Origin: Arthrobacter sp. Edens01 | Lineage (GTDB): Bacteria; Actinomycetota; Actinomycetes; Actinomycetales; Micrococcaceae | Direction: 5' to 3' | DNA: 64,000 bases | Assembly: GCF_001307035.1 (NCBI RefSeq) | Contig: NZ_LKIU01000005.1 | Span: forward strand, 596,571 to 660,570 | Shown here: piece after piece, positions 47,574 through 58,437 of the stretch | How the letters are laid out: each line of letters begins with the position of its first letter | How positions within the stretch are numbered: position 1 is the first letter of the stretch | The notes under the pieces: model-generated | Databases searched by the model: none | What the model saw: only the letters and a program-made list of their open reading frames with translations | Told to the model about the DNA's origin: nothing | Translations under genes and position numbers: made by a program

Positions 47574-47834
47574 ATGGACGAGTACGTGATCGTGGTTGAA
47601 ACCGGGTACAAACTTGCGTCCGCGAACCACAAGATCACCCCCACCGAACCGATGACCCGCCTTGCCGCGGAGCGGATGTTCACCGAAATGATGGACGGCG
47701 GGCATCCCGAACTGCTCCCGGAGAAGAATGACACCTCGTTCCTTGAGGTCTCGCCCGTGGAGTTCCTGCGCCTGCACCGCGCCATGGGCGGAGCGGTGGA
47801 GCTGGATCGGGTGACGCTGGCCAGGGTTCATTAG
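47574..47834 (+). CDS. Small hypothetical protein
   Basis: 86 residues, mixed alpha/beta, beginning DEYVIVVETGYKLASANHKI. I recognise no domain. The ATG at 47574 is 3 bases after GGGAGCGG. It ends 4 bp into the end of acsA, which runs the opposite way. An upstream in-frame TTG/ATG would lengthen it to 109 residues but that part looks non-conserved. Confidence 0.6.
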   Translation: MDEYVIVVETGYKLASANHKITPTEPMTRLAAERMFTEMMDGGHPELLPEKNDTSFLEVSPVEFLRLHRAMGGAVELDRVTLARVH

Positions 47835-49810
47835 GCCGCGCTCCGCGCACGCCGCGCCCGGCAGGCGGCATCGATCGCCGGAATGCAGGGTTCATTCTGC
47901 AGGCTGGTGGTATCCCCGAGCGTGGTGCCTTCGAAGAGCTGGGTCAGCAGCCGGCGCATGATCTTCCCCGAGCGGGTCTTGGGAACATCCGGAACCACGA
48001 CGACGGCGGCGGGCTTGGCGATCGGCCCGATTTCCTTTGCCACGTGGGCGCGCAGTTCTACCGTGACCGTCTCCGCGTCCTTCGACGCAGCGTCGGTCAG
48101 GACCACAAACGCGGCGATGGCGTGGCCGGTCTTTGGGTCGGCCACCGGGCAAACCCCGGCTTCAACCACCCAGGGGTGGGAGACCAGGGCAGATTCGATC
48201 TCGATGGTGGAGAGCCGGTGGCCGGAAACGTTCAGCACATCGTCCACTCGTCCCAGGATCCAGGTGTCTCCGTCGTCGTCATACCGGGCGCCGTCGCCGG
48301 CCAGGAACCAGCCCTGCTGCGCGTACTGCCGCCAGTAGGAGGAGAGGTAGCGCTGCGGGTCGCCCCAGCAGGTGCGCGCCATGGACGGGCCGATCCGGTC
48401 CACCACAATGAAACCCTGCACGTTCGGCGGGACGTTGGCGCCGTGTTCGTCGACGATCCGGGTGGAGACGCCCGGCAGTGCGCGGGAAGCGCAGCCGGGC
48501 TTGAACGCTGTGTCGGTCTGGCGCGGGGAAAGGATGGTGGCGCCGGTTTCGGACTGCCACCAGGTGTCGATCACGGGAACCTCACCGCGGCCGATGTTCT
48601 CCCGCATCCAGCGCCAAGCCTCAGGATTCACGGCTTCGCCGACGGTCCCGAGCAGCCGGATGGAGGAGAGATCCCAGGTGTCCGGGACGCCGTCCGGGAA
48701 CCAGCCCATGAGGGACCGGACCAGGGTGGGGGCGGTGTAGTAGCTGGTGACCTTGTACCGCTCGATGATCTCGAAGTGCCGGCCGGGGTGCGGGGTGTTC
48801 GGGGTGCCCTCGAAGATCACCTGGGTGACGCCGTTGGAGAGCGGGCCGTAGATCTCATAGGTGTGCGCGGTGACCCAGGCCAGGTCCGCGGTGCACCAGT
48901 GCACGTCTGCCTCGCGGGCGGCTTCGTCCGGGTTGGCGAAGAGATACTCGTAGCTCCAGGACGCCTGGGTGAGGTAGCCGCCCATGGTGTGCACCAGGCC
49001 CTTGGGCTTTCCCGTGGTGCCGGAGGTGTACATGATGAACAGCGGCGTCTCGGCGTCGAACGCCTCGGCTTCGTGAACGTCGGAAGCGGCGTCCACGGTC
49101 TCGTGCCACCAAAGGTCACGGCCCTCGGTCCAGGCAAGGTCGCAGCCGGTGCGCTGAATAACAAGCACGTGCTCGATCGCGTTGTCGCCGGACACTGCCT
49201 CGTCCGCATTTTCCTTCACTGGTACAGCTGCCCCGCGGCGGAACTGGCCGTCGGTGGTGACCAGAAGCTTCGCTCGGGTGTCTTCCACCCGGAACTTCAG
49301 GGCCTCAGCCGAGAAGCCGCCAAACACCAGGGAATGGATGGCCCCGATGCGGGCGCAGGCCAGGGTGATGATGATCGTTTCGGCGATGACGGGCAGGTAG
49401 ATGACCACCCGGTCGCCTTTTTCGATGCCCAGGGCCAGCAGTGCGTTGGCTGCCTTGGAGACTTCCTTCTGCAGGCCGGCGTACGTGTAGGTTCGGCGGT
49501 CGCCGGGCTCGCCTTCGGCGTGCAGCGCCACCTTGTCCCCGCGGCCGGCCGCCACATGGCGGTCCACGCAGTTCACGGCGACGTTGAGCTTTCCGCCGGC
49601 GAACCACTCGATCTCCGGGACCGAGTACTCGGCGTCGGCCTCCGGGACGTCCGGGCCGCTGACCCGCTGCGGCGGACGGAAGGTGTGCGCGGTGTGCCAC
49701 GGCTGATCCCACTGCAGGCGGCGGGCAGCGTCCTCCCAGAACGCGATCCGCTCCGCCTCGGTGGCGAACTCCGGTTCGGCTGCGGTTTCCGTTGCTGTGC
49801 CTACGCCCAT
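47831..49810 (-). CDS. acsA: Acetyl-CoA synthetase
   Basis: 659 residues. Adenylate-forming motifs: YTSGTTGKPKG (P-loop), WWQSETGA and GDGARYDDDGDTWILGRVDD; the C-terminal SGKIMRR lysine is the one acetylated in other species. It activates acetate through acetyl-AMP. It begins 10 bp inside the end of the ssuC-like permease gene, so it belongs to the sulfonate operon, which is unexpected. Taurine or sulfoacetate breakdown may yield acetate, but this is a guess. Confidence 0.94.
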   Translation of the reverse strand: MGVGTATETAAEPEFATEAERIAFWEDAARRLQWDQPWHTAHTFRPPQRVSGPDVPEADAEYSVPEIEWFAGGKLNVAVNCVDRHVAAGRGDKVALHAEGEPGDRRTYTYAGLQKEVSKAANALLALGIEKGDRVVIYLPVIAETIIITLACARIGAIHSLVFGGFSAEALKFRVEDTRAKLLVTTDGQFRRGAAVPVKENADEAVSGDNAIEHVLVIQRTGCDLAWTEGRDLWWHETVDAASDVHEAEAFDAETPLFIMYTSGTTGKPKGLVHTMGGYLTQASWSYEYLFANPDEAAREADVHWCTADLAWVTAHTYEIYGPLSNGVTQVIFEGTPNTPHPGRHFEIIERYKVTSYYTAPTLVRSLMGWFPDGVPDTWDLSSIRLLGTVGEAVNPEAWRWMRENIGRGEVPVIDTWWQSETGATILSPRQTDTAFKPGCASRALPGVSTRIVDEHGANVPPNVQGFIVVDRIGPSMARTCWGDPQRYLSSYWRQYAQQGWFLAGDGARYDDDGDTWILGRVDDVLNVSGHRLSTIEIESALVSHPWVVEAGVCPVADPKTGHAIAAFVVLTDAASKDAETVTVELRAHVAKEIGPIAKPAAVVVVPDVPKTRSGKIMRRLLTQLFEGTTLGDTTSLQNEPCIPAIDAACRARRARSAA

Positions 49811-50652
49811 TTCTTCACTGCCCACTTTTCAGCGACGCCCAGTAGGGCATCCGTCGTCTTGCCAATAACTGCCAGCAGCACGATCGCCAGGAACATCCGG
49901 TCAGTGCGGCCGTTGTTCTGCGAATCCGTGAGCAGGAAGCCCAGTCCCATGGAGGATGCGATCAGTTCTGCAGCCACCAGGAACAGCCAGGACTGTGCCA
50001 GTGCCAGCCGCAGGCCGGAGAAAACAGCCGGGACGACGGCGGGCAGCTGCACCGTGGTGAGCAGCTTGATGCCGTTCAGGCCGAAGGCCCGGGCTGCTTC
50101 AACGAGGTTCTTGTCGACGTGCCTCAAGGCCAGGGACACGGTGGTGAAGACCGGGAAGAAAGCGCCGATGGTGATCAGGGTGACCTTGGAGTCCTCGCCG
50201 ATGCCCATCCACAGGATCAGCAGCGGCACCAGGGCCAGGGACGGTACTGCGCGGACGGCTCCGAACAGCGGACCCAGCAGGACGTCCGCCAGCCGGGACA
50301 GCCCCAGCAGGGCACCGAGAACCAGTCCCAGCGCAGCGCCTAGCGCAAAACCTGTCAGCACGCGCTGCGTGGAGATGGCAATGTGCGTGCCGAGTTCGCC
50401 GCGTTCAATCAGGTCCGCAGCCGAGGTCAGCACGGCGCCGGGGGACGGAAGCTGCACCGCGCTGAAGACCCCGAGGACGGAGACGAGCTGCCACAGTCCC
50501 AGCAGCAGGAAAGGTACCACCAGGCCCAGCGCCACGCGGGCCCAGCTCTTGGAGAGCAGTCCGGCAGCTGCGGTATTCCGGGACGGCGCGGCGGGGGGAC
50601 CCTGGATGCCGCCGGGAACCGCCGAGCTGCCGGTCAGGTACGAATTGCTCAT
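49801..50652 (-). CDS. ssuC: Sulfonate-type ABC transporter permease
   Basis: 283 residues, about six membrane segments, with the EAA loop VEAARAFGLNGIKLLTTVQLP. This matches the SsuC/TauC branch of the nitrate/sulfonate/taurine importers. Its ATG overlaps the stop of the binding protein gene by one base (TAATG). The short N-terminal tail is rich in Pro, Ala and Gly. Confidence 0.9.
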   Translation of the reverse strand: MSNSYLTGSSAVPGGIQGPPAAPSRNTAAAGLLSKSWARVALGLVVPFLLLGLWQLVSVLGVFSAVQLPSPGAVLTSAADLIERGELGTHIAISTQRVLTGFALGAALGLVLGALLGLSRLADVLLGPLFGAVRAVPSLALVPLLILWMGIGEDSKVTLITIGAFFPVFTTVSLALRHVDKNLVEAARAFGLNGIKLLTTVQLPAVVPAVFSGLRLALAQSWLFLVAAELIASSMGLGFLLTDSQNNGRTDRMFLAIVLLAVIGKTTDALLGVAEKWAVKKWA

Positions 50653-51698
50653 TAGGATTCCTTCACGGCTTCCGGATCGGCCTTCTGTACGAAGGAATCA
50701 TCTAGGAGGGAGGCAACGGCGTCGTCGATGGCCTTCTGGTTGGCGACGTCGCCGGTTTCGACGAATACGGGCCCCACCTTTTCCAGGACCTTTCGCTGCG
50801 CATCGCCCGGGGCGGCGTCGACGTCGAGGTTGCTGCGTTCCAGAATGACGGTGCGGGCCACCTCCAGGTCCAGACCGGCGACGTCGGCGAGGATCTGCGC
50901 GGTCTCCTCGGGGTTCTCGGCAGCCCAGGCACGGGCCTTTTCATAGACGTTCACCACGGTCTGGGCCAGTTCCGGCTTCTCCTCAAGGAAGGACTCCGTG
51001 GCGTTCAGGAAGCCGTAGGTGTTGAAGTCCAGGTTGCGGTAGAGGAACTCTGCACCGGCGTGCTCTGCGCCTGCCATGATCGGGTCCAGGCCGGACCAGG
51101 CGTCCACCGCACCGTTTTCAAGGGCGGTGCGGCCGTCGGCGTGCTGCAGGTTTTCAACCGTGACATCTGAGGTGCTCAGCCCGGCCTCTTCGAGAGCCTG
51201 GACCAGGAAGAAGTACGGATCCGTGCCCTTGGTGGCGGCGACTGACTTGCCGGCCAGGTCCTCTACGGAGGTGATGTCCGAGCCGGGGGAAACCAGGAGT
51301 CCGGCCCATTCCGGCTGGGAGTAGATGCTGATGGTCTTGATCGGCGAACCGTTGGAGCGGGCCAGGAGCGCGGCCGAACCGGCGGTGGAGCCGACGTCGA
51401 TCGCTCCGGCCCGCAGCGCCTCGTTGGCCTTGTTCGACCCGGCGGACTGCACCCAGTTGACCTCCACACCCTGATCTTCGAGGGTCGCTTCGAGCCAGCC
51501 CTGGTCCTTGATGACCAGGCTGAGCGGGTTGTACGTGGCGAAGTCGATGTTCAATGTGCCGCCGTCCGCGGCGTCGTTGGCGGCTGCGCCGGTGGAATCT
51601 TCACCCGCAACGCAGCCGGTCAGGGCCAGCGTGAGGGCGGCGGCTGCCCCGGCAAGGGCGGCGAAGGGACGGCGGGAGAAACGGGAACGGCTGTTCAT
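50652..51698 (-). CDS. ssuA: Sulfonate-type ABC transporter binding lipoprotein
   Basis: 348 residues. Signal peptide with lipobox LTGC, lipidated Cys29. The NMT1/SsuA-like body has NIDFATYNPLSLVIKDQGWLE and RAGAIDVGSTAGSAALLARSNG. AAAGGAA precedes the ATG. It binds aliphatic sulfonates, taurine or related anions in this family. 98 bp separate it from the ATPase gene upstream. Confidence 0.9.
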   Translation of the reverse strand: MNSRSRFSRRPFAALAGAAAALTLALTGCVAGEDSTGAAANDAADGGTLNIDFATYNPLSLVIKDQGWLEATLEDQGVEVNWVQSAGSNKANEALRAGAIDVGSTAGSAALLARSNGSPIKTISIYSQPEWAGLLVSPGSDITSVEDLAGKSVAATKGTDPYFFLVQALEEAGLSTSDVTVENLQHADGRTALENGAVDAWSGLDPIMAGAEHAGAEFLYRNLDFNTYGFLNATESFLEEKPELAQTVVNVYEKARAWAAENPEETAQILADVAGLDLEVARTVILERSNLDVDAAPGDAQRKVLEKVGPVFVETGDVANQKAIDDAVASLLDDSFVQKADPEAVKES

Positions 51699-51796: not shown

Positions 51797-52624
51797 CTAG
51801 TGGCGGTCGACGCCGAGGCTCGCCAGTAGCTCGCCGCGCATTCGGGCCAGCTCGGCCGAGGCACGGTCCCGCGGACGGGCACCGGGGACGGTGATGGTCT
51901 GTGTGATGGTGGCGCCGGGCTTGCCGGGTTCACGGCCCAGCACAATGATCCGGTCCGCGAGCTGGAGCGCCTCGTCGACGTCGTGGGTGACGAGCAGGAC
52001 GGTGGCCGGGGCTGCGCGGTGCACGTCCAGCAGCAGGTCCTGCATCTTCAAGCGGGTCAGGGCATCGAGGGCGCCGAACGGCTCATCCAGCAGCAGGACG
52101 CCGGGCTTGCGGGCCAGAGCGCGGGCCAGCGAAGCGCGCTGGGCCATACCGCCGGAAACGGCGCGGGGCTGGTGCTTGGCGAAGCGGTCCAGTTCCACGA
52201 GTTTGAGCAGCTCCGAGACCTTGGCCTTGCCGTCGCTGGCACTCGTGCCCTTCGGCAGGCCGATCGCGACATTGGCCTGCAGGGTCTGCCAGGGCAGCAG
52301 CCGGGGTTCCTGGAAGGCGACGGCGCAGCGGTCGTCGATGCCGCGCACGGCGGTTCCGTCGATCAGCACCTGGCCGGTGGAAGCGGCGTCGAGCCCTGCG
52401 GTGGCGCGCAGCAGCGTGGACTTGCCGCACCCGCTGGACCCGAGGATCGCCAGGACTTCCCCCGGGCGGACTTCAAAGTTGATGTCGCGGAGCACCACGT
52501 GGGCGTCTGCGCCGGAACCGAAGCTGCGGCCAACGCCGTCGAACGTCACGGACAGGGCAGTATCGGGTGCAGTCCGCGCAGCAGCGGACACGGCATGGGA
52601 GCCAGAGGAAAGTACAGCAGTCAT
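51797..52624 (-). CDS. ssuB: Sulfonate-type ABC transporter ATPase
   Basis: 275 residues. Walker A GSSGCGKST, Q-loop FQEPRLLPW, signature SGGMAQRASLARALA, Walker B LLLDEPFGALD and H-loop VTHD are intact. It heads the ssuB-ssuA-ssuC-acsA operon. The ATG at 52624 is just 8 nt after the SAM-I-like leader; the GGAG that would serve as ribosome site is part of the closing helix of that leader. Confidence 0.93.
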   Translation of the reverse strand: MTAVLSSGSHAVSAAARTAPDTALSVTFDGVGRSFGSGADAHVVLRDINFEVRPGEVLAILGSSGCGKSTLLRATAGLDAASTGQVLIDGTAVRGIDDRCAVAFQEPRLLPWQTLQANVAIGLPKGTSASDGKAKVSELLKLVELDRFAKHQPRAVSGGMAQRASLARALARKPGVLLLDEPFGALDALTRLKMQDLLLDVHRAAPATVLLVTHDVDEALQLADRIIVLGREPGKPGATITQTITVPGARPRDRASAELARMRGELLASLGVDRH

Positions 52625-52632
52625 GTGAACAC

Positions 52633-52793
52633 TCCATCGGTCCTGGCAGTAGCACCCTACGGAAAACGTCCTGGGCCGGGTTAGCGGCCTCCTGCGACGT
52701 CCACCTCGCTATCGCAGTGCCTCAAGGAGGAAGCACTCCGACCAGGGTTGCTGCGGCTTCACTGATCCAGGTCTCTCAGCCGCTCGGGATGGT
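52633..52793 (-). ncRNA. SAM-I-like riboswitch before ssuB
   Basis: On the minus strand: CCATCC, then GAGCGGCTGAGAGACCTGG, GTGAAGCCGCAGCAACCC, GGTGCTACTGCCAGGACC and GATGGA. These follow the S-box order: P1, k-turn in P2, GCAACC, GGTGC, P1' closing. P1 is CCATC/GATGG. The P3 arm is longer than in the copy at 58.2 kb. GGAG of P1' lies 7 nt before the ssuB start. TTTAGT at 52803-52808 (minus) is a likely -10. Confidence 0.85.
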
Positions 52794-52930
52794 CAAGGCT
52801 CAACTAAACGCCCAAGAGTCCGTGTCCGGCAAGTCCCGGCGTAACATTTCGGTTCGGGCCCCGGCCGTTACGCCGCGTGACAGATGGGGGTTGCGGGCAC
52901 CCCGGTGCTCCGGCGCATACTGGACCCGCA

Positions 52931-53020
52931 GGATCATGAGTCCCAACGCGAAGCTCTGGCTGGTTGGGCGGCAACCCTCTCCCGTAGCGGGGTGCCCCAG
53001 ATGACGATCCGGTCGACCGG
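52931..53020 (+). ncRNA. SAM-IV-like riboswitch before the monooxygenase gene
   Basis: GGATCATGAGTCCCAACGCG, GGCGGCAACCC, GGGGTGCCCC and ATGACGATCC follow the SAM-IV order (TCATGAGT, GGCAACCC, GGTGCCCC, GATGA). P1 can pair as GGATC/GATCC. The k-turn of SAM-I is absent. CCGGTCGACCGG right after P1 (53009-53020) may be the extra 3' hairpin of SAM-IV. CATACT at 52916-52921 is a possible -10. A hairpin at 53062-53080 can cover the AAGGG ribosome site. Confidence 0.75.
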
Positions 53021-53084
53021 CAAGACCGCCGGCGGCAAGTACGGCGCTCCCTTCAGCGGTGCGTCCTTTGCGTAAGGGACCCTC

Positions 53085-54479
53085 ATGGACACCACGCCCG
53101 CCCGCCACATTCGCTTCAACGCCTTCGACATGAACTGCGTGGGCCACCAGTCGCCCGGACTGTGGCGCCACCCGGAAGACCGCTCCGCCGACTACACCAA
53201 GCTCAGTTACTGGACCCATCTTGCCCAGACCTGCGAACGCGGACTGTTCGACGGCATCTTCATTGCCGACGTGCTGGGCACCTACGACGTCTACGGTTCC
53301 TCCAATGAGGCAACCCTGCGGCAGGGCACCCAGGTTCCGGTCAACGATCCGCTGCTGCTGGTCTCCGCCATGGCGCTGGTCACCAAGAACCTCGGCTTCG
53401 GTGTCACCGCGGGCACTGCCTACGAGCACCCGTACCCGTTCGCCCGCCGGCTTTCCACGCTGGACCACCTCACCGAGGGCCGGGTCGGCTGGAACGTGGT
53501 GACCGGCTACCTGCCTTCCGCCGCACGCAATATGGGCCAGGAAGACCAGCTGGAACATGACGAGCGCTACAACCACGCAGATGAGTACCTCGAAGTGGTC
53601 TACAAGCTGCTCGAAGGCTCGTGGGAAGACGATGCCGTTGTCCGCGACAAGGAAACCGGCGTGTTCACCGACCCGGCCAAGGTCCACGACATCAACCATG
53701 AAGGCAAGTACTTCAAGGTCCCCGGCATCCACATCTCTGAGCCCTCCCCGCAGCGCACGCCGGTGATCTACCAGGCCGGCGCGTCGCCCCGGGGCATCGC
53801 CTTCGCCGCGGAAAACGCCGAAGCAGTGTTCGTGGGCGCCCCCACTGCGGAAAAGCTGAAGGCGACCGTCACGAAGATCCGCGACGCCGCTGAGGCCGCA
53901 GGACGCGACCGGCACTCCATTAGGATCTACACCCTGCTCACCATCATCACGGCGGAAACCTCCGAGGAAGCCGAGGCCAAGCACCAGGACTACCAGCGCT
54001 ACGCCAGCCACGAAGGTTCGCTGGCGCTGCTCTCCGGCTGGATGGGCGTTGACCTCTCCACCTACAACCTGGACGAACCGCTGGGCGCCGTGAAGTCCAA
54101 CGCCATCCAGTCCGCTGCGGCGAATTTCCAGAAGGTGAAGGACGACGGCGAGCCCTGGACGGTGCGCGACATAGCCGAGTCCGCCGGAATCGGCGGTCTG
54201 GGACCGCGGCTTGTAGGCTCCGGCGCGGAGGTCGCCGAGGAACTGATCCGCTGGGTGGAGGAGACCGACGTCGACGGATTCAACCTTGCCTACGCCGTCA
54301 CTCCCGGGACGTTCGAGGACGTCGTCGAGTTCGTGGTGCCGGAGCTGCAGAAGCGCGGCGCGTACCCCACTGAATATGCGCCGGGAACCCTGCGGCAGAA
54401 GCTCTTCGGAGCGGGGGATAAGCTGCCCGAAGACCATCGCGGGGCGAAGTTCCGCCTGGCTCCTGCCGTCGCCGGCTAG
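53085..54479 (+). CDS. LLM-class flavin-dependent monooxygenase (NtaA/SnaA/DszA family)
   Basis: 464 residues. IRFNAFDMNCVGHQSPGLWRHPEDRS, RRLSTLDHLTEGRVGWNVVTGYL and YQAGASPRGIAFAAENAEAVF fit this branch of the bacterial luciferase-like fold. Family members use FMNH2 to oxidise C-N or C-S compounds, such as dibenzothiophene sulfone or nitrilotriacetate. Divergent from ssuB and with its own riboswitch; a role in C-S bond cleavage is strongly suggested. AAGGGA lies five bases before the ATG. Confidence 0.92.
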   Translation: MDTTPARHIRFNAFDMNCVGHQSPGLWRHPEDRSADYTKLSYWTHLAQTCERGLFDGIFIADVLGTYDVYGSSNEATLRQGTQVPVNDPLLLVSAMALVTKNLGFGVTAGTAYEHPYPFARRLSTLDHLTEGRVGWNVVTGYLPSAARNMGQEDQLEHDERYNHADEYLEVVYKLLEGSWEDDAVVRDKETGVFTDPAKVHDINHEGKYFKVPGIHISEPSPQRTPVIYQAGASPRGIAFAAENAEAVFVGAPTAEKLKATVTKIRDAAEAAGRDRHSIRIYTLLTIITAETSEEAEAKHQDYQRYASHEGSLALLSGWMGVDLSTYNLDEPLGAVKSNAIQSAAANFQKVKDDGEPWTVRDIAESAGIGGLGPRLVGSGAEVAEELIRWVEETDVDGFNLAYAVTPGTFEDVVEFVVPELQKRGAYPTEYAPGTLRQKLFGAGDKLPEDHRGAKFRLAPAVAG

Positions 54480-58017: not shown

Positions 58018-58232
58018 GTTCCCATCCTCGCGGATCGGCGGGAGAATCGGTGCTCCCGCGCCGCAGCACGCCCATACGTCTGCACGGGTGCCGCGTGAGA
58101 TGGAAGACGGCGCCCCGGCGGACGTAACAAAACGGAGTGTGACGCCGGTCGGAGTCACGTACCGACGCATTCGGCCGCACGGGGAAATCTTCTGGCCCCG
58201 CCGGTGCCTGGGCGGTTTAGATAGTCCCGTAA

Positions 58233-58333
58233 CCATCCAGAGCGGCTGAGAGACCTGGCTCCGTGACGCCGCAGCAACCCTTCTTCCGCGGGCATACCCG
58301 CCGAAGAAGGGTGCTACCGCCAGGACCGATGGA
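58233..58333 (+). ncRNA. SAM-I-like riboswitch before metN
   Basis: CCATCC, GAGCGGCTGAGAGACCTGG, CCGTGACGCCGCAGCAACCC, GGGTGCTACCGCCAGGACC and GATGG in S-box order. The first 19-nt core block is identical to the leader at 52.7 kb. P3 is a hairpin CCCTTCTT/AAGAAGGG. The start codon of metN is 105 nt further on, so the expression platform differs: TGCGGTC (58349) can pair with GACCGCA (58421) next to the AGGAGG ribosome site. Confidence 0.88.
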
Positions 58334-58437
58334 GAAGCACCTGCTCTTTGCGGTCCGCTGCCCCGTGCCTTCCGCACGGCTGCGTGAGCCTGCGGAGGCG
58401 TGCACCTCTTCCCGGGCTCAGACCGCAGGAGGACAGC

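Follow-up and report, generated by a model that had tools for sequence, protein, structure and literature searches.

A P3-extended SAM-I-type leader of ssuB predicted opposite a SAM-IV leader in a divergent gap of Arthrobacter sp. Edens01

Introduction

The S-adenosylmethionine (SAM) clan of riboswitches includes SAM-I (also known as the S-box; RF00162), SAM-IV (RF00634) and SAM-I/IV (RF01725). A P4 hairpin is given as a feature of SAM-I (PMC7270179), and SAM-IV is described as having a pseudoknot, PK-2, that joins the P3 loop and the 3′ end (PMC6890682). Here we analyse a 64,000-nucleotide stretch of Arthrobacter sp. Edens01 (Micrococcaceae; contig NZ_LKIU01000005.1, positions 596,571–660,570; hereafter the window), in which a gap of 460 bp separates the sulfonate-transporter gene ssuB (minus strand, start at 52624) from LLM1, a divergently transcribed luciferase-like monooxygenase gene (plus strand, start at 53085). 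An initial annotation had placed leaders of two different SAM classes back to back in this gap and suggested either independent acquisition or a deliberate difference in SAM threshold. We consider it very probable that the gap holds two divergent SAM-clan leaders, likely OFF switches: a SAM-IV aptamer before LLM1 and, before ssuBAC, a Micrococcaceae SAM-I-type aptamer that lacks P4 and carries an additional domain in P3. The apparent novelty lies in this SAM-I variant, P3-extended and P4-less, rather than in the co-occurrence of two classes.

Results

The motifs quoted in the initial annotation and the 460-bp gap are present in the sequence, and a search with all three SAM models bore out its prediction that the two leaders match different ones: RF00634 on the plus strand and RF00162, below its cut-off, on the minus strand. 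RF01725 gave no match anywhere in the genome at E ≤ 1, and we therefore rejected the SAM-I/IV class for either leader. The initial annotation was silent on the P3 domain, on the lack of P4 and on a third SAM element, the SAM-I at 58230–58335. The RF00162 match lies 5′ of ssuB at positions 52631–52795 (minus strand) and scores 39.0 bits, with an E value of 2.5e-7 when 601 bases are searched and of 3.6e-7 for the whole genome. Given that the gathering cut-off is 44.4 bits, this leader was omitted when the window was scanned with Rfam defaults; the low score seems chiefly due to a domain that replaces the P3 tip and brings P3 to about 100 nucleotides (nt). Relatives of 161–166 nt, scoring 38.9–43.8 bits and every one of them below the cut-off, are found in 28 of the 29 genomes of the genus, and ssuB adjoins the relative at all 28 loci. 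Because of this consistent association, the minus-strand leader is, as judged from comparative sequence evidence, a real SAM-I-type element despite its score. With ssuB starts extrapolated from protein alignments, the gene begins 2–17 nt 3′ of the aptamer at 27 of the 28 loci; at the 28th (in genome G025) the alignment is partial. Of all ssuB leaders in the genus, that of G025 has diverged the most, and it contains broken P3 pairs; the genome lacks an SsuA match at E ≤ 1e-40 but has kept ssuB, and decay is possible. The 29th genome (G017) has neither a SAM-I match nor an SsuA match at E ≤ 1e-40.

Alignment of the leader to RF00162 revealed the kink-turn and the conserved core GCAACC/GGUGC, and P1, the kink-turn block of P2 and this core are invariant in all 28 aligned leaders of the genus. 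The kink-turn block (GGCTGAGAGA), followed by the P2 loop CCTGG, occupies positions 52767–52781 (minus strand). The loop forms one strand of the pseudoknot PK-1, in which CCUGG of P2 is complementary to CCAGG of J3/4; this complementarity was read by eye and, with both strands invariant in 28 of 28 leaders, it shows no covariation. At the other end of the aptamer, the 3′ strand of P1 (GATGG) overlaps the Shine–Dalgarno sequence GGAG, which is located 7 nt 5′ of the ssuB ATG (52632–52638, minus strand), and the combined GATGGAG is likewise invariant in all 28 leaders.

On the plus strand, the proposal of a SAM-IV element is well supported, with RF00634 matching positions 52932–53047, 5′ of LLM1, at 92.2 bits, far above the gathering cut-off of 38 (E = 2.3e-15 in a search of the whole window). 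PK-2 was recognized by eye in a comparison of seven paralogues, as CCGUA pairing with UACGG; the corresponding strands are CCGCG and CGCGG in one paralogue (L003) and contain one mismatch in another (L007). The plus-strand leader is predicted to be a standard SAM-IV aptamer. Downstream, the minimum-energy fold contains a hairpin, GUCCUUU-GCGU-AAGGGAC (53063–53080, plus strand), the 3′ arm of which includes the LLM1 Shine–Dalgarno sequence, making it a candidate expression platform.

Several observations weigh against this interpretation of the gap. The ssuB leader has no P4 hairpin, the P1 strand GAUGG following GGUGC after 13 nt, and this absence, together with the score below the cut-off, means that SAM binding by the ssuB aptamer is likely but not guaranteed; a published account describes SAM-I variants that respond to another ligand, spermidine (PMC10853860). 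Folded on its own, the whole minus-strand leader is no more stable than shuffled sequences (z-score −0.05), and its predicted fold differs from the aptamer. The LLM1 hairpin stretch is also no more stable than shuffles (z-score −0.17), and relatives, compared by eye, share only a short UCC/GGA core that is not present in all of them. The absence of P4 itself is not peculiar to this leader: of 20 ordinary SAM-I loci tried in the genus, 19 show the same 13-nt spacing, the 20th being unparsed. Among 20 ordinary SAM-I elements from other genera of the family, which were chosen among the best-scoring, a script found 13–14 nt at the position of P4 in 14; reading the remaining six by eye (two of them unparsed) showed five without P4 and one, L205 in genome G185, with a hairpin there. 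With that exception, the Micrococcaceae SAM-I elements inspected (L196–L215 and the genus loci L001, L010–L025, L037 and L038) mostly lack P4.

A three-way-junction domain in P3

P3, with its inserted three-way-junction domain, spans positions 52651–52752 (minus strand), as delimited by model R1 and covariation. The domain comprises hairpin A (52712–52741), a conserved junction that leads from hairpin A to stem C (TAGCGAGG in this genome; 52704–52711) and stem C enclosing hairpin B (52663–52703), all on the minus strand. A 46-leaf tree of SsuB proteins assigns 16 compensatory changes to hairpin A (0–4 in slid controls) and 12 to stem C (1–5 in slid controls); pairs of stem C additionally switched between paired and unpaired states 30 times. 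In an alignment of the 28 genus leaders (24 of them distinct), 97.1% of cells in the P3 structure are paired and 11 pairs have changed on both sides, whereas slid controls reach 35–55% and 1–4 pairs, respectively; the structure tested was drawn from the same 28 sequences and included a doubtful pseudoknot of loop A. Shuffles attained 11 such pairs once in 500 trials, and one of five measures, that of further pair types, was not above them. In hairpin B, 97.9% of cells are paired and one of four pairs has changed on both sides. An earlier P3 structure, obtained with RNAalifold from a first alignment, was partly different and has been superseded by the structure tested here.

When the domain is folded alone, the three-way junction is the minimum-energy fold, with small differences, in representatives of four genera (this one and three others), at z-scores of −2.93, −4.46, −2.26 and −1.39. 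Hairpin A measures 28–31 nt in all 50 distinct copies of the domain, and 53 of 53 copies fit the junction pattern T[AG]NC[AG]AGG, although this constancy is in part a product of how the copies were selected, because they were found with R1, a model of the domain itself. Taken together, the alignments and folds identify the P3 domain as a conserved, covarying three-way junction. That loop A forms a pseudoknot with the strand preceding hairpin B is at most a possibility: their complementarity exceeds permutations overall (none of 5,000 as high) but not outside the genus (1,707 of 5,000 as high). We set aside the idea that loop A (UCCUCC) acts as an anti-Shine–Dalgarno sequence, as other genera have runs of C or GCC at this position.

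Of 295 Micrococcaceae genomes, 52 contain the domain according to model R1, representing 5 of 32 genera (23 genomes in this genus and 29 outside it); the family-wide searches for the domain, SAM-I and SAM-IV and the order-wide search for the domain ran under stricter filters and may have missed weak cases. All 28 ssu leaders of the genus carry it. Across the order, 10 of 396 genomes gave a match, nine of them within Micrococcaceae; the tenth (L195, 27.4 bits) has no SAM core by eye and was taken as a chance match. Outside the genus, 29 of 34 copies sit 5′ of ssuB, and the other five are second P3-extended SAM-I copies in genus g8 that do not precede ssuB. Three of these five (L186, L187 and L188, minus strand) lie 5′ of a gene for a family-5 solute-binding protein (a Pfam assignment for L187, extended to L186 and L188 by likeness), and a fourth (L178, plus strand) lies 5′ of an open reading frame that by eye resembles a major facilitator superfamily transporter and is followed by a luciferase-like monooxygenase gene; L179 (plus strand) is the fifth.

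Sister operons offer a direct comparison. In genus g23, SsuA is encoded by 5 of 11 genomes, and all five ssu operons are preceded by an ordinary SAM-I of 89–91 nt. In genus g10, 6 of 21 genomes encode SsuA, with five ssu operons carrying the P3 domain and one (L226) an ordinary SAM-I. Alignment of L226 with locus L225 shows that P1, P2 and the end in which P1 meets the Shine–Dalgarno sequence are common to both, and that the tip of P3 differs. Because an ordinary SAM-I can occupy the same position before ssuB, the P3 domain is, by this comparison, an optional module.

SAM classes before LLM1

SAM-IV was detected in all 61 family genomes sampled for it and SAM-I in 247 of 295. In 9 of the 29 genus genomes, fewer than 300 nt separate the SAM-I from a SAM-IV on the other strand, and in six more the distance is about 1 kb. 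LLM1 is divergent from ssuB at 16 of the 28 genus loci; at the other 12 it falls outside the fetched stretch, which was short in most cases. At one of the 16, in genome G014, the arrangement is the same and LLM1 is preceded by an ordinary, 93-nt SAM-I. We also surveyed the best 80 of 579 LLM1 relatives, all at named loci. SAM-IV lies directly 5′ of LLM1 in nine (model R3) and a SAM-I motif in seven (regular expression); in 64, neither class was detected, with SAM-IV sought by model R3 and SAM-I by regular expression only. The SAM-I expression recovered 30 of 31 known cases. That for SAM-IV recovered two of seven, and its negatives were replaced by the results of model R3.

Both classes are thus resident in the family and interchange before LLM1, and the change of class at this gene fits best with resident leaders having been exchanged or duplicated locally. 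That both classes are ordinary in the family and that either can stand at LLM1 argues against a recent acquisition or a fixed threshold design. Independent acquisition as a recent event is accordingly not borne out: the ssuB leader stands at ssuB in 28 of 29 genus genomes, and this occurrence, together with that of SAM-I across the family, led us to reject the notion that this genome gained SAM-I by recent horizontal transfer. The other suggestion of the initial annotation, that two classes are kept because ssuB and LLM1 need different SAM thresholds, seems to us improbable. It could account for the finding, in 15 of 29 genus genomes, that both classes are at most 1.2 kb from each other on opposing strands. 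However, class exchange at a single gene, as seen in the ordinary SAM-I at LLM1 in G014 and, by motif, at seven of the 80 named loci, speaks against any fixed need for different thresholds, as do the P3-extended SAM-I copies that some other genes carry in genus g8.

Genes and other SAM aptamers around the gap

The minus-strand operon comprises ssuB (51797–52624), encoding a sulfonate-type ATP-binding cassette (ABC) transporter ATPase, ssuA (50652–51698), encoding a sulfonate substrate-binding protein, and the permease gene ssuC (49801–50652). LLM1 (53085–54479, plus strand) encodes an NtaA/DmoA-family monooxygenase dependent on flavin mononucleotide. The NCBIfam cut-offs are passed by SsuA (TIGR01728, 221.8 bits; cut-off 163.5) and LLM1 (TIGR03860, 570.2 bits; cut-off 279.7), whereas SsuB (PRK11247, 200.9 bits; cut-off 395) and SsuC (best hit SsuC, 180.3 bits; cut-off 347) are assigned by best hits to sulfonate-transporter models that fall below the cut-offs. 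Directly 3′ of ssuC is a gene for an acetate–CoA ligase (47831–49825, minus strand), a relative of which also follows ssuC at 11 ssu loci inspected in two other genera.

With the Rfam models, the genome has two SAM-I matches, both inside the window, and seven SAM-IV matches. The second SAM-I (58230–58335, plus strand; RF00162, 57.0 bits) also lacks P4, has a plain hairpin as P3 and lies 5′ of a metN-like ABC gene, which is followed by a second luciferase-like monooxygenase gene (LLM2) and an SfnB/DszC-like gene. Its P2 closely resembles that of the ssuB leader. A further SAM-IV is found about 2.2 kb past the end of the window (contig positions 662726–662838, plus strand), such that a stretch of around 14 kb holds two SAM-I and two SAM-IV elements.

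Discussion

The mechanism that we propose builds on sequence-based evidence, namely the aptamer model matches, their conservation, the covarying domain and the placement of the ssuB Shine–Dalgarno sequence in P1. Both leaders are most likely OFF switches. At ssuB, SAM binding would stabilize P1, which would then take up the GG of the GGAG Shine–Dalgarno sequence and stop translation; the overlap of GGAG with the P1 strand GAUGG, so close to the ATG, is the reason to expect that a SAM-stabilized P1 blocks translation. At LLM1, SAM-IV may hide the ribosome-binding site through the downstream hairpin. Low SAM, signalling a want of sulfur, would thereby switch on both organosulfur uptake and desulfurization. 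As P3 and P1 flank SAM in SAM-I, the P3 tip is a favourable position from which a folded domain could affect binding. The simplest view, and the most likely, is that the P3 domain is an optional tuning module, which might adjust the folding of P3 and, through it, the affinity or kinetics of SAM binding.

Two other roles for the domain deserve consideration. It could be a second sensor nested in SAM-I, either a small-molecule aptamer or a protein-binding site, so that ssu translation answers to SAM and to another signal, such as a sulfur compound. The retention of junction bases while helix bases vary, the single junction pattern and the narrow length range of hairpin A would all suit a binding site, bearing in mind that the search model favours such uniformity, as would the concentration of copies at one operon. 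A SAM-I with a second input, transfer RNA (tRNA), is moreover described in Xanthomonas (PMC7270179). We nevertheless regard a second sensor as unlikely, as some sister ssu operons manage without the domain, the stretch has no convincing match to any other Rfam family and tertiary structure alone may explain the conserved junction bases. The more specific version, in which one RNA integrates two signals, SAM and another sulfur cue, ahead of ssuBAC translation, as an aptamer within an aptamer rather than a tandem arrangement, we hold to be unlikely. The domain might instead be a tolerated variable insertion, a stable structure without function, for which its absence from some sister operons speaks. 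Yet such insertions are described in print as nonconserved, whereas the P3 domain has preserved its size, its junction letters and its pairing across five genera and is present in every ssu leader of the genus, making a functionless insertion unlikely. Among these possibilities we favour the tuning module.

Since a default Rfam scan misses the ssuB aptamer, annotations of Micrococcaceae may understate how often sulfonate uptake is under SAM control. The ssu operons also provide a clean natural comparison, in which members of a single genus have the same operon either with the conserved additional RNA domain on the P3 arm or without it, and LLM1 illustrates how SAM-I and SAM-IV substitute for each other before orthologous genes.

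Set against known systems, the plus-strand leader is a full match to SAM-IV. The ssuB leader shares with SAM-I the core, the P2 kink-turn, PK-1 (CCUGG/CCAGG) and a P1 that includes GAUGG, and departs from it in having no P4, a P3 of about 100 nt tipped by the three-way-junction domain and a score below the cut-off. It resembles SAM-IV in lacking P4 but differs in possessing the SAM-I kink-turn block; the PK-2 and P5 elements of SAM-IV were not recognized in it by eye, no dedicated search having been made. SAM-I/IV belongs to the same clan and is the class without a match in this genome. No description of the P3 domain was recognized in literature searches confined to open-licence PubMed Central (PMC) papers. 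The Xanthomonas met SAM-I (PMC7270179) resembles the ssuB leader as a SAM-I that acts mainly on translation; it differs in that it has P4 and that its second, tRNA-sensing input lies in the expression platform, whereas the additional structure of the ssuB leader is built into P3.
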